Positions 10,109 through 34,345 of a DNA stretch of 53,031 bases are shown here, one piece after another (position 1 is the stretch's first letter; the number at the start of each line of letters is the position of its first letter). The notes beneath the pieces were generated by a model that had not been told where the DNA came from, made no database searches, and saw nothing but the letters and a program-made list of their open reading frames with translations. The translations under genes were made by a program, and so were the position numbers. Source of the DNA: Candidatus Iainarchaeum sp. (GTDB lineage Archaea; Iainarchaeota; Iainarchaeia; Iainarchaeales; GCA-2688035); contig JAFCCO010000010.1 in the NCBI GenBank assembly GCA_017610175.1, positions 1-53,031 of the forward strand, written 5' to 3'.

Positions 10109-10318
10109 ATGAAGTGCGCAAAATGCGGCAAGTCCGCAACAAAACTCAATGCCCAGGGAATTCCTGTGTGCTCGCACCACACAAAGATTAAGATAAAGGC
10201 GCCAAGCTGCCCAAACTGCGGGCTTGAAATGAACATCCGCGAAAGCAAGTACGGCAAATTCTGGGGCTGCAAAGCATTTCCAATGTGCGATGGAATTCAA
10301 AGGCTTGGGTCAGCATAA
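10109..10318 (+). CDS. Zinc-ribbon protein with a topoisomerase-type C4 finger
   Basis: A 69-residue protein with two zinc modules. The first is C-A-K-C-G-K with a later C-S-H-H. The second is the C4 finger found at the C-terminus of type I topoisomerases: C-P-N-C-G, then R-E-S-K-Y-G-K-F-W-G-C-x4-P-M-C-D-G. Stand-alone copies are probably DNA-binding accessory proteins. ATG 10109 is preferred over an in-frame TTG at 10100 because of its spacing to the box A at about 10073. Confidence 0.8.
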   Translation: MKCAKCGKSATKLNAQGIPVCSHHTKIKIKAPSCPNCGLEMNIRESKYGKFWGCKAFPMCDGIQRLGSA

Positions 10319-10431
10319 GCTTAAACTCCACTTAAAACAAGTTTCTTACCATCCCCGCGCCTAAACCGGTAAAAATTCCCCTGTATCGGAAGCGGGCTGG
10401 AAAGCCGCGCAAAATAAAGAGTCCGACAGTT

Positions 10432-11230: not shown

Positions 11231-11270
11231 CTTTAGAAAGGGTTAAATTGATTGAATCTGCAAACTTATT

Positions 11271-11756
11271 ATGCAACGCAAGCCGGTTAAGAAAAGGTTG
11301 ATTGTTGACATAGGTGCTGGTGCAGGGGACTTTTCCCAGGCCCTAAAACGCCGCAATCCAAATGCAAAGGTTATTGCAGTTGACCGCGAAGCCGCAGGCA
11401 AGGGAATTGTCCATGCTTCAATGGGCTCGTTTTTTCAGCACAGAATAAAGAATCCTGCGCGCGTGAAGAAAGTGTGGCTAAACCACGTTGACATAATTTC
11501 CTGCGAAGCATTAAAGGAATTCAAGGCAATGGTCAAACAACTTTCCCCCGGTGCAAGAGTAATGCTTACCATCCGGGCAGAGAGGCTTGCCCAGGTCAGG
11601 GCAGCAATTCAATCCGCCGGGCTTGAAATTAAAGCAGAGAGGGTGTGGAATCCAAAAATGGTTGGAAGCCAGTACACAAAAAAGTTTTACGCAGAGGCGC
11701 AGCGCGGCGTTTCAAAAGCAGCCCCTGTAAGGGTTGTTGCCGTTAAGCCACGCTGA
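11271..11756 (+). CDS. Class I SAM-dependent methyltransferase-like protein
   Basis: A 161-residue Rossmann protein. Motif I is V-D-I-G-A-G-A-G-D-F, the SAM-binding loop, followed by the acidic end of strand 2 in V-I-A-V-D-R. Later strands W-L-N-H-V-D and V-M-L-T-I fit the rest of the fold. The D/N-P-P-Y catalytic motif is absent, so the substrate is unclear. The size fits small archaeal orphan methyltransferases. Its 3' end overlaps the convergent MATE gene by 14 bases. Confidence 0.75.
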   Translation: MQRKPVKKRLIVDIGAGAGDFSQALKRRNPNAKVIAVDREAAGKGIVHASMGSFFQHRIKNPARVKKVWLNHVDIISCEALKEFKAMVKQLSPGARVMLTIRAERLAQVRAAIQSAGLEIKAERVWNPKMVGSQYTKKFYAEAQRGVSKAAPVRVVAVKPR

Positions 11757-13101
11757 CTTTTTTCTTTGGCTTAATTCCCCTGAGCCAGAATCCTGAGTAA
11801 AACAGGGCACTGACAAAAACCAGTTCAACAGCGGCGCCAATTACTAATGCAATCCAAATCCCGTCAAGCAAAAAAGTTTCCGAAAGGAAGAAAGCAAGTG
11901 CGATTGTGACAACCCAGTAAATAATGTTTGTTGCAAATGCAAGCTGTGTCTTTCCCGCACCCTGGAACGCGCTAATGAAAATGAAGTAAACAGCGTAAAG
12001 CGGGAACACAAAAGGAACAATTGAGAGATAGCTTTTTCCAATTCCAATCACTATAAAGTGTTGGGTGAAAACGCGCATCAGTTCCTCGGGAAACGCAAGC
12101 AAAACAAGCATTATGGCAATTGAGATGACAAGCGTGGCCCTGATTGCGATTACTGCAACGCGTTTGGCCCGTTCAAAGTTTCCGGCCCCGATATTTTGCC
12201 CGACAAAGCTTGCCACCGCCGAAGAAATTCCGACAATTGGCATTATTGCAACAGAGTTAAGCCTCATTCCAACACCGTAAGCAGCAATTGCGTAACTCCC
12301 GAAAGAACCAACCATGCCCATAAGCAGCATGAATCCGCCTGCTGTAAGTGTTTGTGAGGCTGAAGCAGGCAGGCCGACAAAAATCATTTGCTTTATGTAC
12401 TCGGGGTGCGGTTTGAATGCGCGGAGCGAAAGCGAAATTTTTGATTTGGGGGTGTAAATGTGCATAAAGTTTAGCACCATTGCAAGGAACCTTGAAAACA
12501 CGGTTGCAAGTGCCGCTCCTGCAAGCCCAAGTGCGGGAATTGGCCCGAAACCAAATATCAAAATTGGGTCAAGGATTATATTCAGCACAATTGAGGCTGC
12601 AAGGTTTTTCATGGGGGTTTTGCTGTCTCCCTGGGCCCTTAAAATCGAGTCCGAAATAAACCAGCCAAACATGAATATCATGCCTATGAAAATAAGTGTC
12701 GAATATTCAAGTGCAAGAGGGAGAACAAGCTCGTCTGCACCCATCAAGGCAAACAGGGGAGCAGAGAACAGTATGGCAAGTGTGGCAACCACTATTCCCA
12801 GGATTGCGGCAAAGATTAGTGCATGCTCTGAAAGATTGTTTGCTTCAGGGAGATTTTTTTTGCCTATTGCCTGCGCAATCAGCGCGTTTGCCCCAATGCC
12901 CAGTCCGCTTGCAACAGCAATGAACACAAACACAACAGGGAATGCAAGGGAGACGGCCGCAAGCTCCAGCGGCCCAAGCATTCCAATGAAAATTGTGTCA
13001 ATGATGTTGTATGCCGTGTGAAAAAACATTCCCGCAACAATTGGCAGCGAGAACAAAAGCAGTTTTTTGCCAATGCTTCCCTCGGTAAAATCGTGGACCA
13101 T
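11743..13101 (-). CDS. MATE-family multidrug/cation antiporter
   Basis: A 452-residue integral membrane protein with about 12 helices in two homologous halves, typical of MatE domains. Family marks include D-F-T-E-G-S-I at the N-terminus, N-I-I-D-T-I-F-I-G in helix 1-2, L-G-I-G-A-N-A-L-I-A-Q, and the second-half repeat A-V-A-S-F-V-G-Q-N-I-G-A. These transporters export drugs or metabolites in exchange for sodium or protons. The ATG at 13099-13101 is about 26 bases from a palindromic TTATAA box, so the mRNA is probably leaderless. Confidence 0.94.
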   Translation of the reverse strand: MVHDFTEGSIGKKLLLFSLPIVAGMFFHTAYNIIDTIFIGMLGPLELAAVSLAFPVVFVFIAVASGLGIGANALIAQAIGKKNLPEANNLSEHALIFAAILGIVVATLAILFSAPLFALMGADELVLPLALEYSTLIFIGMIFMFGWFISDSILRAQGDSKTPMKNLAASIVLNIILDPILIFGFGPIPALGLAGAALATVFSRFLAMVLNFMHIYTPKSKISLSLRAFKPHPEYIKQMIFVGLPASASQTLTAGGFMLLMGMVGSFGSYAIAAYGVGMRLNSVAIMPIVGISSAVASFVGQNIGAGNFERAKRVAVIAIRATLVISIAIMLVLLAFPEELMRVFTQHFIVIGIGKSYLSIVPFVFPLYAVYFIFISAFQGAGKTQLAFATNIIYWVVTIALAFFLSETFLLDGIWIALVIGAAVELVFVSALFYSGFWLRGIKPKKKVSVA

Positions 13102-18477: not shown

Positions 18478-19020
18478 ATGGGGAAAAAAGCGCAGGTTGC
18501 GGTAGAATATATGATTCTCACCGGATTCATTTTGGTGATTGTCACAATAACGTTTGGCGCGTCATACGTAAGCTTTGATTTAAACACAAAGATTGCGCAA
18601 ACAAACAAATTTGTTGATTCGCTTGTTAACAGCATTGACGGAATTTACGTTCTTGGGCCCGGCAACATTGCTTTGGTGAACACAACAATTCCGATGGGAA
18701 CGGAATCAATTTCTGCGGAGTATGTATGCACGGATTCAATAAGCCAGACAATTGCAGGATGCGGTGGGCCAAGCGATGTGAATTTCACAGAAATTTCTCT
18801 TGATATTTCGCTTGTGACCGGTACGACCTCAATAAAGTCTGTAGCTAGGGCGCCGATGGAATTTTTGGACGATGCCGAGGGAAAATCTTTCCCCTGCACC
18901 ACAAATTCAGAGTTCTGCAGCGGGGTATACAACTTGTTTATTTGCTGGGAGCCAGCGGAGGCAGGAGTGCAGGCCTGCACAGGCTGCACAGACGGGGTAA
19001 TCTGTGTGAAAAAAGTATAG
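18478..19020 (+). CDS. Type IV pilin-like protein 1 of the cluster
   Basis: Class III signal peptide M-G-K-K-A then Q-V-A-V-E-Y-M-I, with Glu at +5 and a hydrophobic helix to about residue 32. The 180-residue protein then has a compact beta domain with Cys pairs, the last cluster being C-T-G-C near the C-terminus. It heads a run of plus-strand pilin-like genes with short gaps or overlaps. Likely a minor or structural pilin assembled by the ATPase at 30674. The prepilin peptidase is not in the window. Confidence 0.85.
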   Translation: MGKKAQVAVEYMILTGFILVIVTITFGASYVSFDLNTKIAQTNKFVDSLVNSIDGIYVLGPGNIALVNTTIPMGTESISAEYVCTDSISQTIAGCGGPSDVNFTEISLDISLVTGTTSIKSVARAPMEFLDDAEGKSFPCTTNSEFCSGVYNLFICWEPAEAGVQACTGCTDGVICVKKV

Positions 19021-19074
19021 GCAGGTAAAACGCACTATTATTAAGAATATAAACCATAATGAGTTTTGGATTCT

Positions 19075-19560
19075 ATGCACTCTTACAAAGGCCAGATTGC
19101 CATTGAACAGATGATTTTAACGGTGTTTGTTCTCGGGACAGTTTCAATAATTTTTGCATATGCGCTAGTAAGTTTTGAGCAGAGCGGACGGGCGGCAGAG
19201 GCAAACGATGCCGTAAACAGGATGGTTGCAAAAGCCAATTCAATCCACGCCCTTGGAAAATCACACTCGGACTTTATTCAGGTGAGTTTTCCCACAGGCT
19301 CTCAGTCAGTATTCCTTCTGCACAAATGCGTTTCGGATTCAAGCATTGGCGCGGCATGCCCTTTGGGGGATTCAGACATTGACTTTAGCTATCTGCTGCT
19401 TACAGTGGAAATAGGGGGGTCAACGCAGGAAATAGCAAGGCACTCCAACGCAGTCCTTTTGCTTCAGGAATTTCCATCCGGAAGTGAGCTTGGGGGAAGC
19501 AGGCAAACAATCAGGGTTTCTTGGACAGACACCGGCAAGATAAAATTAAGGAGGGTGTGA
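19075..19560 (+). CDS. Type IV pilin-like protein 2
   Basis: Signal region M-H-S-Y-K-G then Q-I-A-I-E-Q-M-I, with Glu at +5, and a membrane helix to about residue 33. The mature domain is about 125 residues with two Cys. ATG 19075 is chosen; an in-frame TTG lies three codons upstream. The gene ends one base before the next start. The fairly short, simple head suggests a minor pilin. Confidence 0.82.
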   Translation: MHSYKGQIAIEQMILTVFVLGTVSIIFAYALVSFEQSGRAAEANDAVNRMVAKANSIHALGKSHSDFIQVSFPTGSQSVFLLHKCVSDSSIGAACPLGDSDIDFSYLLLTVEIGGSTQEIARHSNAVLLLQEFPSGSELGGSRQTIRVSWTDTGKIKLRRV

Positions 19561-19561: not shown

Positions 19562-19996
19562 TTGAATTCAAAAGCGCAAACCAGTATTGAAATTTTTCTT
19601 GTGGTTGCAACAATTCTTGCTCTTCTCCTTCTTGTTTCGGTCATTTCCATGCAGCGAAACATTTCAATTCAGGCAAGGGATGAGCTCAATCGCAATGCAC
19701 AAATTTGCGGGGTTCTTTCACAGCATATTTCAACATTCCAACTAAACCAGGGGTACAGCGAAACAATATTTGAGCCAGAGGGCGACATACACCTTGAAAA
19801 AAACAATATTGTGGTTGGCGGCACATCCTGCTACTTTTCCAACCGCACACAGTTTCAAACCGCCCAATCAACCTTTACAAGCGATCTGGATGCCGGAGGC
19901 TTTGACTTGGAGCAGGGCAAACGCTATGCTGTAAAAAAAACAAACGGCGAGGTGACATTCTGTGAAATTAAGGAAACTCCGGACCCTTGGTGTTAG
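19562..19996 (+). CDS. Type IV pilin-like protein 3 (TTG start)
   Basis: Starts M-N-S-K-A then Q-T-S-I-E-I-F, a class III signal with Glu at +5, and a strongly hydrophobic helix (A-T-I-L-A-L-L-L-L-V). The mature part is about 115 residues with four Cys. The TTG start is supported by GGAGGGTG placed across the stop codon of the gene before, so translation is probably coupled. The 3' end overlaps the next gene by 35 bases. Confidence 0.8.
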   Translation: MNSKAQTSIEIFLVVATILALLLLVSVISMQRNISIQARDELNRNAQICGVLSQHISTFQLNQGYSETIFEPEGDIHLEKNNIVVGGTSCYFSNRTQFQTAQSTFTSDLDAGGFDLEQGKRYAVKKTNGEVTFCEIKETPDPWC

Positions 19997-21107
19997 GGGG
20001 CAGAGCATGGGCATAGACCTGCTTTTTGCGGTAACCATGTTTCTCCTGATTATAGGGGTTGTTTTCACAATCTGGTCAAACAGCACTGCCGTTGCGGACA
20101 AGCAGCTTTCCGAAATACAAATGAGGCGCATGGCCGAGCGCGCCCTAAACCAGCTTGTCACAAGCAAGGGCTCGCCCGACACTTGGGATTCAAGTTACTG
20201 CGGAATAAGCATTGATGGTCTTGGCCTGGCAAAACGAAACCTTGTGCTTGACGAAAACAAACTTAACCAGTTCATCTGGAGAAACCGCGGCCTGACACGC
20301 GGTCTTGTGGGCAGATGGAACTTTGAAGGGAACCTGCGTGACTCAAGCGGGAACATCAACCACGGAACAGAAAATCCACCCGTAGTTTATGACTCAGGCC
20401 TTTGGGGGACACAATCAGTAAATTTCCAGCCAAACGGATATGGTTCGGTTTCGTATGACCCGGAACTTGGGTCTGACGAGTTAACCGCAAGTTTTTGGGT
20501 AAAGTTTGATGACCTAACAGGGATTCAGGCTCCGCTTGTAATGGTTGGGCCCATCGGCGGGTATCTTTTCATATTGCTTACCGATAAAATGGCTTGGCGC
20601 ACAACTGATGGAGCAGTATGGGAAACTTTAGAAAGCACCGTGCCCCTTGATACAATCAACTGGTTCTTTGTTGCAGCAACAATAGATTCCACTGGCAGAA
20701 AAATATATGTTAACGAAACAATGGACCGTGATTCCTCACAGGTATATTCTACCACAGGAGATGTTGAGTTGTTATTGGGAAGTGGATTACCCCCCCACGG
20801 GGTAATGGATGACATTCGCATCTACAACCGCGCTCTTGCTTCAAACGAAATCCTGTCCCTCTGTGATTGGAACGATATTTACCTAAAGGAAAAGCTTTTA
20901 ATTGCGGACAACAATTTCTTTTTTAGATTGATAGAGCCAGGGACGGGAATGACTTTGACAAACGATTTTGGTGATTTAATAGAGGCGGGCCTTGCGACCG
21001 AGGACAGCAGAGAACCTGAAAACCTTTTGGTTACCAGCGTCTCAAGAATAATAACTTACAAGGAGAGCGAAGCAATTGCGGAATTTACACTTCATCGCAT
21101 CAGGTAA
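19962..21107 (+). CDS. Pilin-like protein carrying a LamG-type domain
   Basis: N-terminus R-G-Q-S-M-G-I-D-L-L-F-A-V resembles a pilin signal, with Asp in place of the usual Glu and one residue out of register, followed by a hydrophobic helix. Residues about 115-301 form a concanavalin/LamG-type domain: G-L-V-G-R-W-N-F-E-G start, D-S-S-G-N, and the closing M-D-D-I-R-I-Y-N-R-A-L hallmark. The flanking sequence resumes after it, so the LamG module is inserted in a pilin-like protein. LamG modules bind glycans or proteins; adhesion is the likely role. GTG start; overlaps both neighbours. Confidence 0.82.
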   Translation: MKLRKLRTLGVRGQSMGIDLLFAVTMFLLIIGVVFTIWSNSTAVADKQLSEIQMRRMAERALNQLVTSKGSPDTWDSSYCGISIDGLGLAKRNLVLDENKLNQFIWRNRGLTRGLVGRWNFEGNLRDSSGNINHGTENPPVVYDSGLWGTQSVNFQPNGYGSVSYDPELGSDELTASFWVKFDDLTGIQAPLVMVGPIGGYLFILLTDKMAWRTTDGAVWETLESTVPLDTINWFFVAATIDSTGRKIYVNETMDRDSSQVYSTTGDVELLLGSGLPPHGVMDDIRIYNRALASNEILSLCDWNDIYLKEKLLIADNNFFFRLIEPGTGMTLTNDFGDLIEAGLATEDSREPENLLVTSVSRIITYKESEAIAEFTLHRIR

Positions 21108-24100
21108 GGGGTTTGCAATATCGGTCGATGCATTGCTCGCAATGCTCCTGACAATTGCATTCCTCGGCTTTATTGGGATGGGGATTCAGGAAGAAGAGCT
21201 TGCGGTAACCGAAGCAACAATAAGCATAAAGCAAACAGTGGACGATGTTTTCAACGCGCTGGACAACTCAGGTCTGCTTGCAAAAAAACTTGCCAACGCA
21301 GAGCTTCGCATGGATCTCATAACCAATCCATCGGACCCGACAAATCCGGGAATATACGATGCCGCAAAGAAACTGCTTTCAGAGGAACAGTCCCTCAAAA
21401 TTGTTGTAAACGAATATCGTGCAGTAGACAATCTTGGCCCCTGCAGAAGCGAGTATGATGATTATCTTAGTGGAAGCTCAACACTAGATGAAGTTTTTGA
21501 TGCATGCTTTTCAACCCCGTACGCAACCATGGAACACTCTGAAAGCACTCTCCCCTTGGATGAGGCGGTAATTCATGGAAGAAAGCTTGCGATAATGCGC
21601 CAGCCGGTGAGCGAAAAAACAGGTGAAAACAGGTGCATTTTAACGTCCGATGCAGAGCTCAAGCAGGAGGCAAAAGAGAAATACATCAAAGCCCTTTTTG
21701 CGGAACCCCTTGGGGCGGATGTTGAAACAGAGGTCATTGTTGTTCCAAGTGATGAAATCTCCTGCGACGAGGAAGTAACTGTTGTACTAAAAGCGCGGAA
21801 TGCAACACGCGGCCCGATTGCGATAATGCTTGCCGTGGACGAAAGCGGAAGCATGGAAACCCTGGACATGCTTTCACAGGAATCAACAGGCTCGTTCAAT
21901 GCAGGGACCTGCGAAAACGAACCCAAGTGGGTTTCGGGTTATGCCGGAAATGCAATTCAGTTCAACGGACTTACGTCTTATATAAACTGCGGAAACAACC
22001 CCCCCATGCAGTTGGACGGGGACCTGACAATTCTTTTCTGGGCAAAACCGTTTGATGTTGATTCCCCAAGCAGGCAGAATCCGATTTGCAAATCATACGG
22101 CGCGGAATTTTGCGTAAATATGGAAGCAGATGGGGAACTAAGAATTTATCACGGGTCGGCAGGAAGCAATACGTCACCTTACACAAGCTTTGGCACAGAG
22201 GGTGTTTTCCAGGACAATGTATGGGTCCACGCCGCAATCACAAGAGACGTTTCCACCAGAACATGGAGATCGTACAAAAACGGAGCATATACCGGAGTAA
22301 CCAGAACATGGACAAGCGGCTACGACCCCGTGACAAGCGCGGGATACAATATGCTAATTGGAGACGGCTATGTGAATAACTTTAATGGGATAATTGACGA
22401 GGTCAGAATTTACGACCGCGTTCTGGATGATTCTGAGGTAAACCAGGTTGCATCCGGAACAAACATAACAAACGGACTTGTCGCATACTGGAGCATGAAC
22501 CAAACAACCGGAAATTCCCTGACAGACAATTCGGGAAACGGGAACAACTGCGCGCTCTGGAACTGGGCCAGTGCCGGAAGTGAAGCCAAGTGGGTTTCAG
22601 GTGAAATAAGCAACGCGCTTTCATTAAACGGAATAAACCAGTATGTTAAAGTCGACAACGATTCTGCTCTCGATATTACAGGCCCGATTTCAGTTTCTGC
22701 GTGGATAAAAGTAAACGACACAGAGCAAAGCGAATACATGCGGATTGTTTCAAAGGGAATTTGCTGCAGCACAGGATACGAACTTGAGTACAGGCCAAGC
22801 GATGGCCGCATAGCCTTCCAGGGCAACGGCCAGTTAGACGCCGACGGCCAAACCATTGATCTGGGCTGGCACCACATTGTAGGGGTAATAGATGGAACAG
22901 GAACAGGGCAGATTTATTTGGACGGGGCGGACGTAACAACCGACACTTCCGCAAATGTTCCAACATCCACCAGCTACGATTTAGAAATAGGCAGGCGAGT
23001 TGATGACGATTATTACTTCAATGGCTCAGTTGATGACGTGAGAATATACAATACGGCACTCGACCAAGGGAATGTGGATACCCTTTTTGCCCACGGCAAT
23101 GTTGCAACAGGCCTTGTCGGCCACTGGGCATTTAACGAAGCCGCGGGAGACATTGCTAGCGATTCGTCAGGACAGGGAAACAGCGGAGACCTCATTGGCT
23201 GGGCCGGCGTGGCAGGATGCATTTACAATCCAGGGGTTAATGAACAGGTAACTTCAAACTGTCCGGCAAACAAAACCTTCTTTTCACAGTTTACCGGAAA
23301 CAAGCCAATGGTTGCAACCTATGACACAACACCAATATACGACGATCTTGTTTCAGCAAGTTACCTTGATTTCATCGCAAGCACAACAAGCTACCTTGGG
23401 GTTTGCCGCGATCCATACGCATATATGCGCCTTTGGATGGAGTACCCAAGTGGGTATATAGACGGCACCACCTCCAGTGCATACTATGAAACAGATTATA
23501 GCCCTGAGTTGGGAACTTACAAAACCCATGTTTGGAGTGACACCCTGATAAACTACTACATTTACGGCAGGCAACGTTTTTACAGCATAAACGATCCAAT
23601 GTTTAGAGTAGAAAAACTTTTGTCTGGTTCAGGCACGCATTCGGGAATTTATGCCCCGCCGGAACAGGACTGCTCCAACTTTTGGAACTGGGAAAAAGTC
23701 GGGGAATTCACAATAAGGCCGGACTACAACACTTTTTCAGACGCATGGTGGAGGCCGTATTATTACGGCTATGACTCAAACTCCGGCGCATGCAAAGGCC
23801 CGAAGTTCCAAATAATAGGTGTAAACAACGAGGTCACAAGCCATGTTCCCGGAAAGGAGGGAAACGCAATAAGCTTTGACGGAGCCGCAACATACGGCAA
23901 AATTGAGGAGCAAGAAGGTTATGATTTTGGGTTTGAGGACCAGACCGGCTCAATTTCAATGTGGTACAAGACAAGCCGTACATCAAGGCAATCTTTATTG
24001 AGCAGGTGGGGAACAGGAGCATACACAGGGTGGAACATTTACACAAGCAGCGATGATGTCTGCTTTGATGTTGTAACCCAAAACCCAACCCAGGGAAACA

Positions 24101-26727
24101 TTCCCTGCCAAACAACTGGGGCGACAGACGGAAAATGGCACAATGTTGTGGGGGTCTGGGAAGACAACCAAGTCAGGCTTTACTTTGACGGGGTTGCGGT
24201 TGCGCCAAAGACAATTCCCGCAGGATTTACATACAACCCAGGGACACAGCCAGTTTGGCTCGGCAGAAACAATTATGGCAGCATGGTGGAATGGTTTTCA
24301 GGTGAAATTGATGAGGTTCGCGTTTACAACCGCGCGCTAACGGCTGCTGAAGCACTGGACCTTAACAATTGGGGAACAAATCCCGCAACACACATTTTTA
24401 CAGAAGATGTGTCTAGCGGATTAATTTCACACCTTAAATTCAACGAGGCAAGCGGAAACAACGCAGCAGACTCATCTGGAAACGGAAATGTTGCAACAAT
24501 AAATCCAGGCCCTGTTTGGCCAATCGGAAGACAGGATCTTGTAAATTACTGCGGTGACGGAGACGATGGGGATTACTGTGAATTCAGGTATGACAAAAGC
24601 ATAATAAGCGGCCCGTTTCTTCCGACCGGAACATACGAGGTTTGGGCCTGGAGTGATGTCCCAATTTTTGTAAGATTCCAAACAAACAGAATTGACCGCG
24701 CTCTTGGAGTACTGTTTGGCAACACATCAAGAACAGATACTCTGGACGGAGGAACATGCAACGGAAGTACCTGTGGAACAACAACAGTTGTTGAAGTGCC
24801 TCCTGAAACAAACTGCCCTGTGGGCACAGGAGACAAAAGAAGCATCCTGCTTGGTGCCGCAAACACCCAAACAGTGGAATCTTATTCAGTTTCCTCAGAT
24901 ATTGAAGCACTGAGGGTTAGCAGCAAATTTGATTACAGCTCAGCCCCAACCGCAATTTGCGGAGGTGCGGCAATGGGATTCCAAAATCCAGTGGACGGGC
25001 CCTCAGACCCCAATTGGTACAACTGGGATCCAACTGCAGGCAGCATAAGAACAAACACATTCGGAGTAAACGATTCTACCATATCTTCAACATACAAGTG
25101 GACATCTGGCCCGCCGATAGCCCAAGGAGACTACAACATCCTTGGTTGGGCAGAAGACAGCGTTGACTACGAGCTCAAATGGTACTTGCAAAGGCTTGAC
25201 TCCGCAAAGAACGCGGTGCGCACGTTTATTGATGATGCTCAGTGGAAATTAAATGATGAAATTGGGCTGATTGGGTTCTCAACAAGCGCAAACACACTGC
25301 AGGGGCTTACAGACGTCATTGAATACGGCGACGACATAAAAACAGCACTTGACCTGCTTGAGCCAAGCGGCGAAACAGGAATGGCTGACGCAATAGACGC
25401 CGCGGTTACAGAGCTTGGAAATGCAAGAAGCGGCGCCGGAAAGTTCATTGTCCTGTTAACAGACGGGCGCGCAAATGTATGCCGCGGTGGGGATTTATGC
25501 TATAATGAAACCCAAGCAGGGCTGGATGCTGTTGCTGCAGCAAACGCCGCAAGAACACAGGGCATAACTGTTTACGTGATTGGATTTGCCGATGCCTCAA
25601 TAATTGGTGCGTACGAAAACACCCTTAAGACAATTGCAAAAGACAAGGATGACTCAATAATCTGTCCCAATCCGGAATCAGGATACAATTGCGGAAAATA
25701 CTATTACGCCGCCGACCAGGATGCGCTCGCAGAAATGTACAGCCTGATTGCGTTCGAAATCGCCAGAACAATGGGGGTAGCTGATTTGGAAATTCCAATT
25801 CCCGAGGGCATGGAATTAAGTGAATACGGGACCAGAACCTGCGGGGTATGGAAGGATTCAGTCGGAGCAATAATCACCGAAGTGGACAGCTGCGGAGTAT
25901 GCAGCTCCGGCCAGGACACCTGTGAAGACGGTGAACTATTGCTCTACTTTGACCAGCCAATAAGCTACTCGGGGGATGAATGGTGGGCTGCCGAATTCAA
26001 AACAGTTATTCCCTGCAGTGCAAATTCCTGTTATTCCGATTTTGTTCTCTTTCCCCCTGCTGGAACAGGGATAACGGACAACAACAGCGAGGATGTAATA
26101 AGCTGGGACAACGAAGACAACAATACTGTAATATGTGAGGGAGGCGCAACAACCCGCTGCCACCAAAAAATCCCGCTAAAATATGCGGACCTGAACGTGT
26201 TTTTCGTGGACGGGGAAATTGACTCAAGCAAGCAGTGGATTGACGTAAGCTTTGAAATTGACAACAACGGATTCAGGGACATCATAATCGGCAACTCAGG
26301 GGTTGACAGGCTAAAAATAGCATTTTACCAGAATGACCTGTCAAAGCCACTGGATGTTTCAGGCGCCCCTGCACCCACAATATACTTTGGCCAGGGGGCG
26401 GGAGAGGAAGTTCTCATAAGTGACTATAACATTGATGTGGACGGGAACCTAAATATTGCCCTTCCAACACCTGCAACCACCGGAAATCTTTGCGCCCCGC
26501 TTGAAGAGGCCTGTGAACAGCCAAGTTACTGGAAGTTAAGGCTAAGCAGTGTAAGATTACACAATTGTTACGGAGCAGGGGGGGACTGCACAGGAACAAT
26601 TCTTGCTGCAATAAATCCCAACAAAGCGGTTGGGGAATGCGAATTGCACAACCTGGCTGAAATGTACTGCCTGGGCGAAGCAGACTTAAGATTTTATACA
26701 GTAGACTATTATGTATGGGAGGACTAA
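21076..26727 (+). CDS. Giant pilin-like adhesin: VWA domain split by LamG insertions
   Basis: 1,883 residues. The N-terminus (G-F-A-I-S-V-D-A-L-L-A-M-L-L) resembles a pilin signal plus helix. A VWA domain begins near residue 245 with the metal site D255-x-S257-x-S259, then stops. About 1,100 residues follow, with three LamG-like modules (about 282-456, 468-673, 678-1099, each closing near V-R-I-Y or V-R-V-Y) and Cys-rich sequence. VWA resumes near 1370 with Thr1434 and D1463-G, completing the metal site, then an F-V-type C-terminal region (about 1560-1883) rich in Cys pairs. The TTG start follows AAGGAGAG and overlaps the previous gene by 32 bases. By analogy with bacterial PilY1-like VWA proteins it may be the pilus tip adhesin (inference). 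Confidence 0.85.
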   Translation: MRNLHFIASGKGFAISVDALLAMLLTIAFLGFIGMGIQEEELAVTEATISIKQTVDDVFNALDNSGLLAKKLANAELRMDLITNPSDPTNPGIYDAAKKLLSEEQSLKIVVNEYRAVDNLGPCRSEYDDYLSGSSTLDEVFDACFSTPYATMEHSESTLPLDEAVIHGRKLAIMRQPVSEKTGENRCILTSDAELKQEAKEKYIKALFAEPLGADVETEVIVVPSDEISCDEEVTVVLKARNATRGPIAIMLAVDESGSMETLDMLSQESTGSFNAGTCENEPKWVSGYAGNAIQFNGLTSYINCGNNPPMQLDGDLTILFWAKPFDVDSPSRQNPICKSYGAEFCVNMEADGELRIYHGSAGSNTSPYTSFGTEGVFQDNVWVHAAITRDVSTRTWRSYKNGAYTGVTRTWTSGYDPVTSAGYNMLIGDGYVNNFNGIIDEVRIYDRVLDDSEVNQVASGTNITNGLVAYWSMNQTTGNSLTDNSGNGNNCALWNWASAGSEAKWVSGEISNALSLNGINQYVKVDNDSALDITGPISVSAWIKVNDTEQSEYMRIVSKGICCSTGYELEYRPSDGRIAFQGNGQLDADGQTIDLGWHHIVGVIDGTGTGQIYLDGADVTTDTSANVPTSTSYDLEIGRRVDDDYYFNGSVDDVRIYNTALDQGNVDTLFAHGNVATGLVGHWAFNEAAGDIASDSSGQGNSGDLIGWAGVAGCIYNPGVNEQVTSNCPANKTFFSQFTGNKPMVATYDTTPIYDDLVSASYLDFIASTTSYLGVCRDPYAYMRLWMEYPSGYIDGTTSSAYYETDYSPELGTYKTHVWSDTLINYYIYGRQRFYSINDPMFRVEKLLSGSGTHSGIYAPPEQDCSNFWNWEKVGEFTIRPDYNTFSDAWWRPYYYGYDSNSGACKGPKFQIIGVNNEVTSHVPGKEGNAISFDGAATYGKIEEQEGYDFGFEDQTGSISMWYKTSRTSRQSLLSRWGTGAYTGWNIYTSSDDVCFDVVTQNPTQGNIPCQTTGATDGKWHNVVGVWEDNQVRLYFDGVAVAPKTIPAGFTYNPGTQPVWLGRNNYGSMVEWFSGEIDEVRVYNRALTAAEALDLNNWGTNPATHIFTEDVSSGLISHLKFNEASGNNAADSSGNGNVATINPGPVWPIGRQDLVNYCGDGDDGDYCEFRYDKSIISGPFLPTGTYEVWAWSDVPIFVRFQTNRIDRALGVLFGNTSRTDTLDGGTCNGSTCGTTTVVEVPPETNCPVGTGDKRSILLGAANTQTVESYSVSSDIEALRVSSKFDYSSAPTAICGGAAMGFQNPVDGPSDPNWYNWDPTAGSIRTNTFGVNDSTISSTYKWTSGPPIAQGDYNILGWAEDSVDYELKWYLQRLDSAKNAVRTFIDDAQWKLNDEIGLIGFSTSANTLQGLTDVIEYGDDIKTALDLLEPSGETGMADAIDAAVTELGNARSGAGKFIVLLTDGRANVCRGGDLCYNETQAGLDAVAAANAARTQGITVYVIGFADASIIGAYENTLKTIAKDKDDSIICPNPESGYNCGKYYYAADQDALAEMYSLIAFEIARTMGVADLEIPIPEGMELSEYGTRTCGVWKDSVGAIITEVDSCGVCSSGQDTCEDGELLLYFDQPISYSGDEWWAAEFKTVIPCSANSCYSDFVLFPPAGTGITDNNSEDVISWDNEDNNTVICEGGATTRCHQKIPLKYADLNVFFVDGEIDSSKQWIDVSFEIDNNGFRDIIIGNSGVDRLKIAFYQNDLSKPLDVSGAPAPTIYFGQGAGEEVLISDYNIDVDGNLNIALPTPATTGNLCAPLEEACEQPSYWKLRLSSVRLHNCYGAGGDCTGTILAAINPNKAVGECELHNLAEMYCLGEADLRFYTVDYYVWED
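26717..26722 (+). promoter_or_regulatory. Ribosome-binding site setting the 26729 start
   Basis: GGGAGG lies six bases before ATG 26729 and inside the end of the previous gene. It favours this start over in-frame codons upstream. Confidence 0.7.
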
Positions 26728-26728
26728 C

Positions 26729-27877
26729 ATGCGCAAAAACGGTTTTTTTCTAACATTCATGGCGTTGATTCTCATAGGAAGTGTTCTGGCCCTTCAAACA
26801 TCAACCACCCAGTTTACGCTTCGCGACGAAAGAAGTAGGATAGATCAAACGGCATTTGAGGAAATAAACCAAACATTCACAAACATCTACAACCAGATTC
26901 TTGTTTCAAAAGAAGGATACGCCGGAAAAGTGCAGGGGCGAATAATTCCATTGAAAAATTATGAAAAGGGGCAAAACTGGTTTGAAATAACCCAGGAATT
27001 TCCCGCAGAACAGGAAACGCTTGACGAGACATATGATGCACTGAACCTTTTCTCAATATTTTCAAGCGCAAAAAACTCCCGCAGCGACCTCCATGTAAAT
27101 GTGTTTGCATTAAGGAACGACGACTGGGGTGGAAGTGAAGAAAACCCGCCATTTACATACATAATAGAGCCACAGTGCGTAAAATCAAGTATTGGGACAC
27201 AAGACGGGGGCACAGGGAACACAGTTGATGTGATGCAATTTTTTGAAGGGGATTCTCTGGAGGGGGACCCATGCGATTTTCCGGATCCAACGTCAGAAAC
27301 ATTGGGTGACATTAACTCTTTTATTGTGCGAGCGGAGATAGCGCTCTTGGGGATCTGTGATGTGAAAAGTTCCATATCCAATACAATCACTTGCAGTGGC
27401 GGATTGGCGGAACCCCCAAAAGACGGAGAAAATGGGTGCGCGATGGAAGTGTATGATTCCTCTGAAACCCAGCCGTTTGCTTTTGTCCACATAGTGTTTA
27501 CTGACTGTTTTGACGGCACCAGTCCCGAATGTGCTTCAGTTTTTCACTCAAGCAACCCCGATTTCCCGGCAGGTTTCCCAGACGGAGAATACTTTATCTA
27601 TGGGCACTTTAATCCTTTGGATGCAACTGAATCCCTATTTAAATTTACTGGCTGCGGAACAGGGCAAGGGTTGAGCATAGATTTTGTGCCAGATGACGGC
27701 CTTCTTTTTAGAACCAACCAAAAAGACATGGATTCTGACCTAATGGAAATAGACATCACAAACCGCATAACATTCAATTCCCCAATAGAATTCATACAAT
27801 TTAGCGGAGTAGACCTTTCCATAAAAAAGAAGAATTTTGACTACTGCAGGGCCACCTATGAACAGCTCTGCGACTAG
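26729..27877 (+). CDS. Secreted or membrane-anchored protein of the pilus locus
   Basis: A 382-residue protein with an N-terminal hydrophobic segment (F-F-L-T-F-M-A-L-I-L-I-G-S-V-L-A) that is either a signal peptide or an anchor. The remainder is soluble, acidic and Cys-containing, with no domain I recognise. It follows the giant adhesin by one base after its stop, so it is surely co-transcribed and may be its chaperone, partner or anchor (inference). Confidence 0.8.
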   Translation: MRKNGFFLTFMALILIGSVLALQTSTTQFTLRDERSRIDQTAFEEINQTFTNIYNQILVSKEGYAGKVQGRIIPLKNYEKGQNWFEITQEFPAEQETLDETYDALNLFSIFSSAKNSRSDLHVNVFALRNDDWGGSEENPPFTYIIEPQCVKSSIGTQDGGTGNTVDVMQFFEGDSLEGDPCDFPDPTSETLGDINSFIVRAEIALLGICDVKSSISNTITCSGGLAEPPKDGENGCAMEVYDSSETQPFAFVHIVFTDCFDGTSPECASVFHSSNPDFPAGFPDGEYFIYGHFNPLDATESLFKFTGCGTGQGLSIDFVPDDGLLFRTNQKDMDSDLMEIDITNRITFNSPIEFIQFSGVDLSIKKKNFDYCRATYEQLCD

Positions 27878-27940: not shown

Positions 27941-30661
27941 ATGCCAAACCGCGCCCCTGAAAATGAAACGCAAGCCAATGCAAAGAAAAAGGGAGGCATT
28001 GGCAGCATTTTTAGCAGGCTCAAATTCTGGGGCAAGAAAAAGGAAAAAAAGCCAGAAGTGGAACAGGTTCTTGAAGAAATAAGAATCGCAATGAAAATAG
28101 AGGATGTGGCTGAAAAGAAACCCCCTGTGGGCCATGCATTTAAAGTAAAGCCAGAGGACATTGCAATTGCAGTCGCAGGCAAAGAACCGGTGCCAAAGCC
28201 AACACCCAAACCTGTTGCAAAGCCAAAGCCGGTTGCTGCACCAAAACCGGTTGTAGTGCCAAAGCCTGTTGCTAAACCTGCTAAATTGGAGCACGCATTT
28301 AAGCCAGGTGAGGAAGTTGCTGTAGCGGGCGCAAGCCTGGATAAAAAGCAAATTGAGCGCCTTGCAAAACTTAAGGCTGAGGCTGCCGCAAAACTGGTGG
28401 CTGCAAAAAAGCCGGTTGTTAAGCCGGTTGCTGCACCAAAACCGGTTGCTGCACCAAAACTGGTTGAAAAACCAAAACCGGTTCCCAAACCTGTGAAGTT
28501 GGAGCATGCATTTAAGCCAGGTGAAGATGTTGCTGTTGCGGTGGGAGTTGTAAAGAAAAAACCAAAGCCCATTGCAAAGCTCAAGATTTCAAAGAAACCA
28601 GCTCCCAAGCCAAAACTTGTTTCAAAACTAAGACCAAAACCAACACCCAAACCAAAAGTTCGCATTCCAAAAAAGATTGCCGCAATGCCAAAGGCTGAAA
28701 AAATTGTAAAAATGCCAAAACCAGTTCCAAAGCTAAAACCAAGGCCAGAAGTTAAGCCAAAAATTCCAAAAAAGATTGCTGCAATGCCAAAGGCTAAAAA
28801 GGTTGTTGAAATGAAGAAGCCGGCTATAAAAGCACTGCTCCCAAAGAAGATTGCTGCAATGCCAAAGGCTGCACCAAAGCCACGCATAAAACCAAAACCA
28901 ATTGCAAAGCCCAAACCGGGCGCAAAGCCCGTGGTTAAACCCGCCGAGAAAGCGAAGCCTGCTGCGAAGGTTTCCAAGGAAAAAGCCAAGGCAAGAGTAC
29001 TTTCTCCCGAAATTAAGAGGGCTGCAAAAATTGTGAAGATTGCCGAAAGGACAGGCGGCTGGTTTGGCGACAAGATACAGCACAAGAAGGCAAGCCTTGA
29101 GGGCTGGCGCATAAGGAAAAAAGTCCATCTCTACAGGCTCAAGAAAAAGTCGAAGGAAGGAAAGATTAATTCTCTTGAAAAGAGAACACTTGCAAGGCTT
29201 GCGGCGGATGAAGCAGAGATTGTAAAGAAGATTAAGGGCCTGGATGCAGAAATAAAGGCAATACATCAGGTTGACAAAAAAATTAAGGAACAGGAACAAG
29301 TGCTTCGCCAGCATGTTGGGGACCCGCTTCCAAAAGAACTTTCCCCAATTGCAAGCGGGAGGATTAAGTTCAGAAATTCCCAGGATTTCAAGGACGCGGT
29401 TGAAGCGGTAAAGGCTGTTGCAGAGGAGTTTGCAGGGGCGGTTTCAAAAATGCCGGCGGCACCAATCACAATAACGGAAGGCACCGGAATAAGTATTGAC
29501 AGCCAGATAACAACAACTGAAAATCTCATCAAAAATCTTGAAAAGGCATTCTACAAACGAAAGGTAAGCTTTGACCAGTTTAGGGAAAAGCTCTTCTCCT
29601 ATCAATCAAGTCTCAGCGAGCTTAAAATGAAGAAGAGCGTAATTGCCAAAGAACGCGGAAAGCAACCAGCCCCAAGGGAAATCAAGGCAAAAATAGTGAG
29701 GGAAGTGGTGGAGAAGCCGGAAGGAATAAAGAAATGGGTTAAGGAAGCGATTAAGGAGGCTGCAAAGGAAACCGCGAAACAACAGTTTGCGCAGCAGCCA
29801 AAAACAGTTTATGTGCAGGCTCCGCCTCAGCAACTGCCGGCGGGGGCCCAAGTGATTCAGGCAGTTCGGCCACAGAGGCCGATTGCACAGCCTCTCCCGC
29901 AGGCGCCGATAAGGGAGCGTGTGATTGAAAGAATTATTGAAAGGCCTGTTGAAATAAAAAGAGTTCCGACGGTTGCACCGGTTGAGCCCACAACAATGAA
30001 GGCTCCAAAATCCATAACTCCTGTTTCCAAACCACCTGTAAAACCCGCGCCGGCACCTGCCGCGCGCGCAGCCGCCCCCAGGCCCCTGCAAAAAATAAGT
30101 CCGCGCGTTCAAACAGCGGTGAGCAAAAAAGCACGCGGAGTTTTATCACAGGGCCAGATAAACCAGATTGAGGAAAGTCTCGGTGCATTGCTTGAAAAAC
30201 ACCGCATCTCAGAACAGCAGCTCTCTGTGAAAATAGAGGCACTCAATCCGGCCGCCTTACTTGGGGATTTTCACAAGCTTATAGGAATGGCCGGCGGAGG
30301 CGGAAGCTATGGCGGAGGCGATTTATTAAAACCCCTTCCCAGGGAAACAGGTTCGCTGGCAGCAGGCGGAGTTACGGGCAAGGAGAAAAAGAAGTTTACC
30401 GCAAAAGAAAGGGAGATTGTAAAGCACAAAATAATTACAGATTTTGACAAGATTGTTAATTATGTGCAGGAAAAAGGAAAGGCCAACGAGGTTCAGGCAA
30501 TGAAGGACCTTAAAATAAGCAAAAAGCGCTTTGAGGAATGCTGCAAGATCCTTGAAGAAAACAGGATAATTAACGTAGAATATCCTGCAATAGGTGCGAT
30601 GAAAATTGCAGATGTAAACTATAAAGAACCTTCAAAAAAGAAGGGAAAAGGTAAAAAATAA
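27941..30661 (+). CDS. Large Lys/Pro/Ala repeat protein with C-terminal winged-helix-like domain
   Basis: 906 residues with no signal peptide, so cytoplasmic. Residues about 60-350 are low-complexity K-P/A-P repeats holding two recurrent motifs: H-A-F-K-x-G-E-(E/D)-V-A-V-A (three versions) and I-P-K-K-I-A-A-M-P-K-A (three copies). Coiled-coil helices follow (about 370-560), then a second Pro/Ala-rich linker, a Gly-rich patch, and a final roughly 90-residue domain (K-I-I-T-D-F-D-K-I-V-N-Y-V then K-I-S-K-K-R-F-E-E-C-C) that looks like a winged helix. It sits between the adhesin and the motor ATPase. A flexible scaffold linking the motor to other parts is my inference. Confidence 0.8.
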   Translation: MPNRAPENETQANAKKKGGIGSIFSRLKFWGKKKEKKPEVEQVLEEIRIAMKIEDVAEKKPPVGHAFKVKPEDIAIAVAGKEPVPKPTPKPVAKPKPVAAPKPVVVPKPVAKPAKLEHAFKPGEEVAVAGASLDKKQIERLAKLKAEAAAKLVAAKKPVVKPVAAPKPVAAPKLVEKPKPVPKPVKLEHAFKPGEDVAVAVGVVKKKPKPIAKLKISKKPAPKPKLVSKLRPKPTPKPKVRIPKKIAAMPKAEKIVKMPKPVPKLKPRPEVKPKIPKKIAAMPKAKKVVEMKKPAIKALLPKKIAAMPKAAPKPRIKPKPIAKPKPGAKPVVKPAEKAKPAAKVSKEKAKARVLSPEIKRAAKIVKIAERTGGWFGDKIQHKKASLEGWRIRKKVHLYRLKKKSKEGKINSLEKRTLARLAADEAEIVKKIKGLDAEIKAIHQVDKKIKEQEQVLRQHVGDPLPKELSPIASGRIKFRNSQDFKDAVEAVKAVAEEFAGAVSKMPAAPITITEGTGISIDSQITTTENLIKNLEKAFYKRKVSFDQFREKLFSYQSSLSELKMKKSVIAKERGKQPAPREIKAKIVREVVEKPEGIKKWVKEAIKEAAKETAKQQFAQQPKTVYVQAPPQQLPAGAQVIQAVRPQRPIAQPLPQAPIRERVIERIIERPVEIKRVPTVAPVEPTTMKAPKSITPVSKPPVKPAPAPAARAAAPRPLQKISPRVQTAVSKKARGVLSQGQINQIEESLGALLEKHRISEQQLSVKIEALNPAALLGDFHKLIGMAGGGGSYGGGDLLKPLPRETGSLAAGGVTGKEKKKFTAKEREIVKHKIITDFDKIVNYVQEKGKANEVQAMKDLKISKKRFEECCKILEENRIINVEYPAIGAMKIADVNYKEPSKKKGKGKK

Positions 30662-30673: not shown

Positions 30674-32407
30674 GTGATAACAATGTTTGGACTAAAGAAG
30701 AAGAAACCAAAGCCGGCTGCTGAAGCAAAAGACGCGTCAAAAGCAGATTCTGTCCCCAAAGCAGATTCTGTCCCCGCCAATTCTGGGCAAGCCACTCCGA
30801 CACAGTCTGCTCCGAATCCAATGCCTAAAGCGCCACCGGTTGCCGCAAGGCCAGTGGCTCCAAATGTAACAGTTTCAAACGAGCTTGAGGTAGAGAAAGC
30901 AAATGTTGTTGAAACATATGAAATCGAGTCTAACGAAGTCACGATTGAAATAAACATTGTTGAAAAGCCGGGAGTTTTTGTAAGAATTTACCACATGAAC
31001 TTCCCGTCATACGGCCCCGGGACAACGGCACTGCTTGCGGATTTAAAGAACACAATTGTTGCCGAGAGCGCAATCCAAAGCGACAAACTTCTTGACCCAA
31101 AGTTTGTCAAAGAGATGACAATGCGGTTCAAGCAAAAGGCAGTAAATCTCCTGAAAAATGAGGCACCAAGCCTTAATGATGAAACACGCAATACACTTGC
31201 GGGAATGCTGCTGCACGACATGCTTGGGTTGGGCAAAATAGAGTTTATTCTTGCAGACGGGAATCTTGAGGAAATTGTCGTAAACGACAGCAAGAACCCG
31301 ATTTGGATTTACCACAAAAAATACGGCTGGCTGCGCACAAATGTCTGGATTAAAACAGAGGAAGAAATAGAAAACTACGCAAACATAATTGCAAGGCGGG
31401 TGGGAAAACAGATAACAACGCTAAACCCGCTTCTCGATGCACACCTGATTACAGGGGACAGGGCAAATGCAACCCTTTTCCCAATAAGCAGCAAGGGAAA
31501 CACAATAACAATCAGGCGATTCAGAAGAGAGCCCTGGACCGTTGTTGACCTGATTGAAAACAACACCGTAAGCAGCGAACTCATGGCGCTTATTTGGGAA
31601 ACAATGGAATATGAGCTGAATATTATATTCAGTGGAGGCACGGCATCCGGAAAAACAACAATGATGGGAATTTGCCTGCCGTTCATTCCGCCAAACCAGC
31701 GTGTAATAAGCATTGAGGACACGCGTGAGCTGCAGGCTCCGGCATATCTGCACTGGGTTCCGATGACAACCCGTGAGCCAAACCCTGAGGGAAAGGGAGG
31801 GGTTTCAATGCTTGATTTGCTTGTAAACAGCCTGAGAATGAGGCCTGACAGGATACTTGTCGGGGAAATAAGGCGAAGCCGTGAAGCAGAGGTAATGTTT
31901 GAAGCAATGCACACAGGCCACAGTGTTTACACAACAGTGCACGCCAACACCGCGGAGGAAACCGTAAGGCGCCTTACAAATCCACCAATCGCAATTCCGC
32001 CCGGTTTGCTTGACGCCGTTCATCTTAATGTTGTAATGTTCAGGAACAGGCGCTTGGGGGTAAGAAGGGCGCTGCAGGCAGCCGAATACATTGTGGAAAG
32101 AAGGGCAAGCGGCGGGGAAAGCATTAAGACAAACGTGCTATACCGCTGGAGAGGCTCGGACGACAGCATTGTGCAGCACAATCCAAGCATAAAGTTCTTT
32201 GATGAATTAAGTCTGCACACAGGATTAAGCAAAAACGAGCTGCAGCAAGAGCTCAAAAACAAGAAGATGATTCTTGACTGGATGGTAAAATATAAGTTTA
32301 CCAAGGTTGAAAATGTGGGAAAAGTAATAGCAAGGTACTATATGGACTCGGATTTAGTGACAAGGGCCGCAGAAGCAGGCAAACATCCGGGGGAATCTTT
32401 TGGCTAA
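30674..32407 (+). CDS. Type IV pilus/secretion motor ATPase (TadA/FlaI/GspE family)
   Basis: 577 residues. After a Lys/Pro/Ala-rich N-region of about 75 residues come the N-terminal domain and the RecA-like ATPase core. Walker A is G-G-T-A-S-G-K-T-T (321-329, Lys327), followed by the Asp box (V-I-S-I-E-D-T-R-E-L), Walker B R-I-L-V-G-E-I (Glu398), and the His box G-H-S-V-Y-T-T-V-H-A. It powers pilin assembly at the cytoplasmic face of the membrane. GTG 30674 and ATG 30683 are alternative starts. It overlaps the next gene by eight bases. Confidence 0.95.
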   Translation: MITMFGLKKKKPKPAAEAKDASKADSVPKADSVPANSGQATPTQSAPNPMPKAPPVAARPVAPNVTVSNELEVEKANVVETYEIESNEVTIEINIVEKPGVFVRIYHMNFPSYGPGTTALLADLKNTIVAESAIQSDKLLDPKFVKEMTMRFKQKAVNLLKNEAPSLNDETRNTLAGMLLHDMLGLGKIEFILADGNLEEIVVNDSKNPIWIYHKKYGWLRTNVWIKTEEEIENYANIIARRVGKQITTLNPLLDAHLITGDRANATLFPISSKGNTITIRRFRREPWTVVDLIENNTVSSELMALIWETMEYELNIIFSGGTASGKTTMMGICLPFIPPNQRVISIEDTRELQAPAYLHWVPMTTREPNPEGKGGVSMLDLLVNSLRMRPDRILVGEIRRSREAEVMFEAMHTGHSVYTTVHANTAEETVRRLTNPPIAIPPGLLDAVHLNVVMFRNRRLGVRRALQAAEYIVERRASGGESIKTNVLYRWRGSDDSIVQHNPSIKFFDELSLHTGLSKNELQQELKNKKMILDWMVKYKFTKVENVGKVIARYYMDSDLVTRAAEAGKHPGESFG

Positions 32408-33317
32408 AACAATCCCGTTCAGCATTCTGCCTCCTTTGGTGATGTTAAGGCTTTCCACTCCGTTCAGGGGAATAGGTTACAAAATAAGCAAGGCATTTCC
32501 ATACATGAAGCTTGAGCTAAGGCAGGCTGAAATGGACTTTGAGGCAGAGGAATATGCCGCAATAATGTCGCTGAGCTTTGTAATGTACTTAATTCTGCTG
32601 ACTGGCTTTTCTTGGGTGATGCTTTCAAGGTTCAGGCCGCAAAAATTCATAGTGGGCGGCTTTAAGGTTCCTGAAGCAATACCGATTGCAATTACTATTG
32701 GATTAATTGGCGCATTCTTAATTTTTATCCAAATGTCAATGTACCCAAATCTCCAGATAAAGAAAAAAATCAGAGGCATTGAATCAAACCTTGTGTTTGC
32801 TTTAAGGACAATGCTTGTTCAGATAAAAAGCGGAATAAGCCTGTTTGCGGCACTTGACATGATTGCAAAGGGGGGTTTTGGGCAGCTGAGCAAGGAATTC
32901 GGCAAGGCAGTGGATATGATAAACACAGGGTCATCCCAAACAGTTGCCCTGCAAAACATTGCAACAAACAACCCAAGCCCGTACGTAAGAAAAGTTATTT
33001 GGCAGGTTGTTAACGGAATGAAGGCAGGCGGAGACATTTCAGACATTTTGAGCGAAAGTGTTTCATCCATGACCAGGGAACAGGAAATTGAAATCCAAAG
33101 ATACGGAAACAGCCTAAGGGTTCTCTCCCTAATGTACCTTATGGTCGGCATAATAATGCCTGCATTGGGCATCACATTTCTCATCGTTTTGGGCTCTTTC
33201 CCAAAAATTGTGATAACCCAAATAATGTTTTGGGGCCTGCTGGGTCTTGTGGTGGTAATGGAATTCATGCTGGTAGGCATGATTAAGTCAAAAAGGCCAA
33301 ATCTGATAAGTGCGTAA
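32400..33317 (+). CDS. Pilus platform membrane protein 1 (TadB/TadC/GspF type)
   Basis: A 305-residue membrane protein with the T2SSF layout: two helices near residues 55-110, a cytoplasmic helical domain with F-A-L-R-T-M-L-V-Q-I-K-S-G and G-M-K-A-G-G-D-I, and two C-terminal helices. It forms the membrane base on which the ATPase acts. The TTG start overlaps the ATPase gene by eight bases. Archaeal archaellum platforms (FlaJ) are usually one longer chain; here a second gene of the same type follows. Confidence 0.9.
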   Translation: MAKTIPFSILPPLVMLRLSTPFRGIGYKISKAFPYMKLELRQAEMDFEAEEYAAIMSLSFVMYLILLTGFSWVMLSRFRPQKFIVGGFKVPEAIPIAITIGLIGAFLIFIQMSMYPNLQIKKKIRGIESNLVFALRTMLVQIKSGISLFAALDMIAKGGFGQLSKEFGKAVDMINTGSSQTVALQNIATNNPSPYVRKVIWQVVNGMKAGGDISDILSESVSSMTREQEIEIQRYGNSLRVLSLMYLMVGIIMPALGITFLIVLGSFPKIVITQIMFWGLLGLVVVMEFMLVGMIKSKRPNLISA

Positions 33318-33319: not shown

Positions 33320-34345
33320 ATGGTTTACAAAAGAATTGCAGCACTCTTTCCCAAAGGGCTTACCAAATGGGTTGCCCGTCAATTTGAGTACGTTGGAATA
33401 GACCTTAATGCGCAGCGCTTTGTGGGATTTATCCTGATGTTTGGCTTTGGGCTAAGTATTGCGGTAGCACTAAATATATACATAATTTTCAAGATGCCTT
33501 TGGATGCAACAATCGGAAGCTTTGCAATCTCCTTTGTCGTGTTTGCGGGCGGAACCTTTTTCTGGCTCAACAGCACGGCTTCAAGCAAGGGAAAGTTTGT
33601 TGAAAAAATAATGCCTGACGCGCTTCAATTAATCTCGTCAAACATGAAAGCAGGCCTAACCACCGAGCGAGCCCTCTTTGTAAGCGCAAGGCCTGAATTC
33701 GGGCCGCTTTCACTGGAGCTCAAAGCAACAAGCAAACGCATTCTAAGCGGTGAACGGCTTTCAGTTGCATTAATGGGAATAACGCGCAAAATCAAAAGCA
33801 ATATTTTGGACAGAACAATCTGGCTTCTTACTCAGGGAATCAAAAGCGGGGGCCAGATTTCCGGACTATTAGTTGAATTAAGCGACGACCTTAGGGAAGA
33901 GAACGCGCTCAAGGAAGAGGTCAAAGCAAATGTAAGCATGTATGTAATGCTTATCTTCTTCTCCGCCGCGATAGGTGCCCCCATGCTTTTTGGGGTAAGC
34001 AGCTACATTGTAGGGGTTCTCTCAGGCCAGGGTCCGGAGGACATGGGCGGTGCGGCAGCAGGCGGAGGAATGTCAATGGGGTCAGGGGGATTAATCGGCG
34101 GATTTATAGAGGGGGATTCGGCGAAAAGCGAAATTTCCGAGGACTTTGTTGTGTTCTTTGCTGAAATAGCCCTTCTTGTGACCTCACTTTTTGCAGGCCT
34201 TGTGCTTGGAGCAATTAATACTGGCAAGGAACTTGACGGCGTGCGCTACATGCCGCTAATTGGGATAGTGGGCTTTGCGGTCTTCTTCATCACGCGGGGA
34301 ATGATGGACTCACTAATGGGAAGCTTTGTTACCACAATGATTTAA
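33320..34345 (+). CDS. Pilus platform membrane protein 2 (TadC/GspF type)
   Basis: 341 residues with the same helix-cytoplasmic domain-helix layout as its neighbour. Family marks are L-Q-L-I-S-S-N-M-K-A-G-L-T and W-L-L-T-Q-G-I-K-S-G-G-Q-I. A Gly/Met-rich loop (about residues 235-265) is inserted before the last helices. It starts two bases after the first platform gene and ends the plus-strand pilus operon. The two proteins probably form a heteromer, as TadB/TadC do. Confidence 0.9.
   Translation: MVYKRIAALFPKGLTKWVARQFEYVGIDLNAQRFVGFILMFGFGLSIAVALNIYIIFKMPLDATIGSFAISFVVFAGGTFFWLNSTASSKGKFVEKIMPDALQLISSNMKAGLTTERALFVSARPEFGPLSLELKATSKRILSGERLSVALMGITRKIKSNILDRTIWLLTQGIKSGGQISGLLVELSDDLREENALKEEVKANVSMYVMLIFFSAAIGAPMLFGVSSYIVGVLSGQGPEDMGGAAAGGGMSMGSGGLIGGFIEGDSAKSEISEDFVVFFAEIALLVTSLFAGLVLGAINTGKELDGVRYMPLIGIVGFAVFFITRGMMDSLMGSFVTTMI

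Follow-up and report, generated by a model that had tools for sequence, protein, structure and literature searches.

The VWA domain of a large pilin-like protein was found to be split at its metal site (MIDAS) by an insert of about 1,100 residues, placed directly after the DxSxS motif in the loop between strand beta-1 and helix alpha-1. The gene lies within the window, i.e., the whole stretch of 53,031 nucleotides from Candidatus Iainarchaeum sp. that was analysed. The split VWA is a family-wide trait of Candidatus Diapherotrites and is encoded in a conserved type IV pilus operon; the MIDAS residues are conserved on both sides of the break, and the inserts are modular and, in several members, nested. 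That the two pieces make up a single VWA fold is strongly supported, short of proof, by profile scores and by models of homologues. We think it likely that a Diapherotrites type IV pilus contains the protein as a modular minor pilin, most likely tip-exposed, with a VWA loop that would display swappable modules.

Results

Layout of the VWA gene product

The open reading frame at 21076–26727 (forward strand, as are all window features given here) encodes 1,883 residues and is uninterrupted by stops. A class III (prepilin-like) leader, residues 1–12 (21076–21111), ends in SGKG ahead of FAISVDALLAML and is followed by a pilin-like N-terminal module, residues 13–242 (21112–21801; 55% identity to a paralogue in the same genome), which formed helices and a small sheet in AF2 models of homologues. 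The insert, residues 263–1368 (21862–25179), separates VWA strand beta-1 and the first MIDAS motif, residues 243–262 (21802–21861), from the remaining VWA, alpha-1 to alpha-6, residues 1369–1567 (25180–25776). The C-terminal domain, residues 1568–1883 plus the stop codon (25777–26727), is beta-rich, has conserved Cys and was kept throughout the family; identity to the paralogue was 49% over residues 1183–1882.

The Pfam VWA match covered residues 1373–1526 and profile positions 16–156 only; since it began at position 16, strand 1 and DxSxS were absent from the second half of the protein. Both were present upstream in the stretch IAIMLAVDESGSM, which carries D255 (at 21838), S257 and S259. This motif, DESGS, is the sole DxSxS anywhere in the window protein and lies 1,118 residues ahead of helix alpha-1; T1434 (25375) and D1463 (25462) follow the insert. 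A sequence-only reading of the window had assigned the divided metal site to these five residues, and all were confirmed in the translated product. An assembly or reading-frame artefact was ruled out by the open reading frame, by the same layout in the paralogue and about 40 homologues, which come from separate assemblies, and by the conserved operon.

A probable single VWA fold from two segments

When residues 243–262 were spliced onto the second half of the window protein, the Pfam scores rose from 57.6 to 71.1 bits for VWA and from 45.9 to 61.0 bits for VWA_2, and profile coverage then ran from positions 2 and 1, respectively; another 20-mer of this protein, used as control, gave 58.7 and 47.5 bits, a gain of 1.1 and 1.6 bits. 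The splice likewise raised the score of the paralogue from 54.1 to 68.6, and that of the homologue L050 from 80.7 to 97.6. The control splice, the sole occurrence of the motif in the protein and its family-wide conservation ruled out a chance DxSxS. With a profile built from the spliced sequences, matches at E<=1e-5 were obtained to 108 distinct sequences of solved structure; in the alignments shown, the match extends across the junction.

AF2 models were made for two homologues, L050 (762 aa) and the paralogue (1,155 aa), each with a pTM of 0.44. Strand 1 was modelled at residues 226–233 in L050 and 240–247 in the paralogue, and alpha-1, after the insert, at 368–382 and 646–660; from there both models continued with beta-2, beta-3, alpha-2, alpha-3, beta-4, alpha-4, beta-5, alpha-5, beta-6 and alpha-6, the canonical VWA order. 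Block pLDDT over the VWA was mostly 83–95 for L050, and for the paralogue was about 92 at beta-1 and 77–94 over most of the rest. The best Foldseek matches included the pilus tip adhesins SpaC, PitA, Mfa5, PilB and RrgA, together with integrin beta chains. The splice scores and the modelled homologues support the earlier placement of the break between the first VWA strand and the first helix, and the models, as judged by element order, gave no indication of two independent partial domains.

Modules of the insert

The Pfam family Laminin_G_3 scored 229.7 bits over three stretches of the window protein (curated cut-off 27.6). LamG 1 (residues 280–461; 21913–22458) and LamG 2 (residues 502–676; 22579–23103) precede Cys beta module 1 (residues 721–833; 23236–23574), which matched positions 5–119 of the module model. 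LamG 3 (residues 923–1101; 23842–24378) is nested in Cys beta module 2 and divides it into a first part (residues 852–931; 23629–23868; model positions 7–81) and a second part (residues 1152–1206; 24529–24693; model positions 74–120), so that LamG lies within a Cys module and the Cys module within the VWA. Cys beta module 3 (residues 1224–1371; 24745–25188) runs straight into helix alpha-1. The sequence-only reading had described the insert as three LamG-like modules plus Cys-rich sequence; the LamG count agrees with Pfam, whereas the remainder is not plain Cys-rich sequence and holds three modules of about 120 residues, the second split by LamG. Simple pairwise alignment to the insert of the paralogue gave too many gaps for interpretation, and the layout was resolved by the module HMM.

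The shortest members of the family hold one Cys beta module of about 120 residues as their insert, and by the module HMM related members hold from 1 to 5 or more copies. Other members have instead an LVIVD beta-propeller of about 290 residues that fills the gap almost exactly; in L056 the propeller occupies residues 276–569, between D268 and alpha-1 at 572. LamG domains are added to the insert in some members only. A similar LamG split of a Cys module was seen in L040 and L038, and less cleanly in L042. The propeller is itself interrupted in L155 (model positions 1–123, then 116–293), and in a second paralogue group, L039 (375–5405) and L042 (complement 7338–12470), LamG domains separate two LVIVD propeller-like parts, and all of this is housed in the VWA loop.

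Insert types switch repeatedly on the tree of the VWA halves, which requires 11 changes among the four insert classes against a minimum of 3; many of its deeper forks are weak. In this tree the paralogue, which has no LamG, was sister to the window protein (support 100/98), and LamG was therefore gained or lost after that duplication.

The pilus operon

The VWA gene is encoded together with assembly ATPase and TadC platform genes, in the order pilins, pilin with LamG, VWA, 388-aa protein, Lys/Pro-rich protein, ATPase, TadC, TadC, and this order recurs in most loci long enough to display it. Three pilin-like genes lie at 18478–19020 (MGKKAQVAVEYMIL), 19066–19560 (KGQIAIEQMIL) and 19562–19996 (KAQTSIEIFLV), followed at 19962–21107 by a pilin-like protein with its own LamG (Laminin_G_3, E=2e-16). 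Homologues of the latter occupy the same operon place in relatives, some with LamG and some without; those with LamG include homologues in some same-family genomes, one of which has a Fib_succ_major domain, and the one homologue checked from beyond that genome family (L050) had no Pfam match. Overlapping the VWA gene, and following it in nearly all relatives, is the gene for a 388-aa protein with a hydrophobic N-terminus (26711–27877), which matched no Pfam or NCBIfam family; as a partner of the VWA protein it is a strong candidate. A conserved Lys/Pro/Ala-rich protein of 906 aa (27941–30661), with no confident Pfam match, precedes the PilB-type ATPase in nearly all relatives. The PilB/TadA-type assembly ATPase (30674–32407; T2SSE, E=3e-33) and two TadC-type platform proteins (32400–33317; T2SSF, E=7e-16; and 33320–34345; T2SSF, E=6e-16) complete the set. 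Elsewhere in the window, a 1,562-aa open reading frame at 18–4706 gave a weak beta-helix match only.

The N-terminus of the window protein, SGKG followed by FAISVDALLAMLL, fits a class III leader ahead of a hydrophobic helix. The leader pattern KGFxxSxDA was seen in most family members, and the genome has three prepilin-peptidase-family genes. The pilin-like N-terminus and the place beside the pilus motor, both proposed from sequence, are well supported by the class-III-signal-like start and the pilus operon.

Occurrence in Candidatus Diapherotrites

Of the 75 genomes of the order, 49 gave a match; a few of these matches were incomplete or fell on VWA proteins of another kind. The same arrangement was found in the paralogue, where the gap is 399 residues and LamG is absent, and in about 40 homologues; among the complete members the distance from DxSxS to alpha-1 ranged from 125 residues (L051) to 1,120, as compared with roughly ten in an ordinary VWA, and the window protein is the longest of them. 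All five MIDAS residues were kept in 41 of 43 scorable rows. Two divergent members, L064 and L153, were not fully scorable, and their MIDAS also looks degenerate. The sole natural member without an insert, L147 (662 aa; complement 4971–6956, G062:C60), has a contiguous VWA and a degenerate MIDAS (DRSRP, SDAAD). Insert-less homologues with no MIDAS at all in the second half were not encountered, the MIDAS of L147 being lost in part, and the pairing of a missing insert with a partly lost MIDAS hints that the two are kept together.

One family member, L061 (G049:C17), is spread over two open reading frames with one in-frame TGA. A contig scan for homologues with the paralogue alone as query gave no match, and tblastn of the window protein against plasmids gave only low-identity partial matches, which among those listed fell in the LamG part.

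Outside the family, two Micrarchaeota proteins (L071 and L073), encoded next to ATPase and TadC genes, have a VWA with an insert of about 120 residues at the same point. A Parvarchaeota protein (L118), also encoded next to pilus motor genes, carries a very Cys-rich insert of about 60 residues there. The N-terminal regions of the Micrarchaeota proteins differ from those of the window family, and none of the three inserts matched the Cys-module or LVIVD models.

Discussion

Comparison with known systems

Among the closest published systems is the TadG-like minor pilin CpaL of Caulobacter, which also joins a pilin module to one vWA in two segments, 148–203 and 384–626, that flank beta-rich domains. 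Its predicted MIDAS is complete and its predicted location is the pilus tip; beyond adhesion, CpaL may have a part in regulating surface sensing (PMC12607857). Its insert comprises 180 residues (204–383) forming two beta-barrels and begins about 40 residues past its DxTxS motif (D160) (PMC12607857), a position that the window protein does not match: in the window family the insert follows directly after DxSxS, has a length of 125–1,120 residues and is built of modules, with nesting in some members. The sequence-only reading had called an interrupted VWA unusual; CpaL, a published split vWA, qualifies this, whereas the insertion point, size, modularity and nesting appear to be new.

The bimodular type IV pilins PilB (a vWA with a MIDAS and two flanking arms) and PilC (a ConA-like lectin) of S. 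sanguinis are proposed to form a joint tip complex (PMC8179133, PMC9934059). The window operon resembles this pair in that a VWA pilin adjoins a LamG pilin of PilC-like layout (19962–21107), but the arms of PilB are small and its lectin is on a separate protein, whereas in the window protein LamG lies inside the VWA loop. Small arms near the MIDAS are known from RrgA, GBS104, Mfa5 and PilB (PMC7893114, PMC7835359, PMC8179133). The tip adhesins RrgA, GBS104 and Mfa5 share with the present family a vWA with subdomains inserted around the MIDAS (PMC7893114, PMC7835359); their arms, however, are of 38–123 residues, arise at strand C (ARM1) or beta-4/alpha-4 (ARM2), and belong to unrelated pilus types. 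A census of archaeal type IV pili names vWA proteins as regulators and, in the passages found, makes no mention of a split-VWA layout (PMC4858521). As far as the literature was searched, an insertion of up to 1,100 residues directly after DxSxS is new, as are the exchange of cargo and its nesting at several levels throughout a group of archaea.

Alternative explanations

The VWA could instead comprise two independent partial domains, with DxSxS belonging to the N-terminal module and a truncated VWA using as its first strand the one that AF2 places right before alpha-1 (E638–644 in the paralogue, E358–366 in L050). That strand is real in the models, but it is the final strand of the Cys module, and its equivalent in the internal copies leads to another module rather than to a helix. 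The profile match regained from position 2 on splicing, the invariance of DxSxS along with the T and D in family alignment A1, and the contiguity of L147 and L080 at the insertion point likewise argue against two domains, and we regard this explanation as highly improbable.

Alternatively, the protein might be a membrane-held, TadG- or CpaL-like regulator or anchor of the pilus with no role as a tip adhesin, its inserts being spacers or sensors. Loss of the split-vWA minor pilin CpaL stimulates surface sensing (PMC12607857), and TadG is thought to anchor the pilus (PMC4858521); on the other hand, the type and number of cargo modules vary strongly among close relatives, and lectin-type domains are added, the neighbouring pilin included, which looks like ligand-driven diversification. 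We consider a regulator or anchor unlikely. More improbable still is a large cell-surface or S-layer-associated protein that shares the operon only and stays outside the filament. Its size might suggest this, being far bigger than known pilins with a 1,800-residue head that could hinder assembly, but the KGFxxSxDA leader pattern speaks for a pilin, as does the position of the gene alongside pilin genes and the assembly ATPase, which is kept throughout the order.

Proposed function

As a modular minor pilin, the VWA protein would be placed in the filament by its N-terminal pilin module, after which comes the single VWA with a complete metal site. The loop right after DxSxS, from beta-1 to alpha-1, would serve as a display slot for independently folded modules; it holds Cys beta modules or an LVIVD beta-propeller, in which LamG domains can nest. 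The modules would bind ligands on a partner cell or surface, probably glycans in the LamG-bearing members, and the VWA may add a second, metal-dependent contact. Because the slot belongs to the MIDAS loop, a pulling force on the modules, or binding to them, could change the metal site, as in integrin-type domains, and such a coupling of cargo to metal site is plausible. Analogy with PilB/PilC of S. sanguinis and CpaL of Caulobacter makes a tip location, glycan binding and force sensing each plausible; for carbohydrate binding by LamG, the one analogy that suggests it is that with PilC. A bolder version is that the MIDAS loop is a general recombining cargo slot in DPANN pili, in which unrelated folds are swapped and nested at several levels, and that the metal site is under direct control of ligand binding or pull at the cargo, which would make the protein a force-gated two-site adhesin; we offer this tentatively and think it rather doubtful.

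Known vWA pilus adhesins carry small arms by the metal site, whereas in this archaeal lineage the metal-site loop has become an exchangeable slot with room for binding-type domains totalling up to 1,100 residues, and the metal site stays intact. The natural series of members with no insert, one module, several modules and nested modules is suited to testing the effect of MIDAS-loop cargo on VWA function. An exchangeable slot of this kind would explain how small, possibly partner-dependent archaea vary the binding of their pili.
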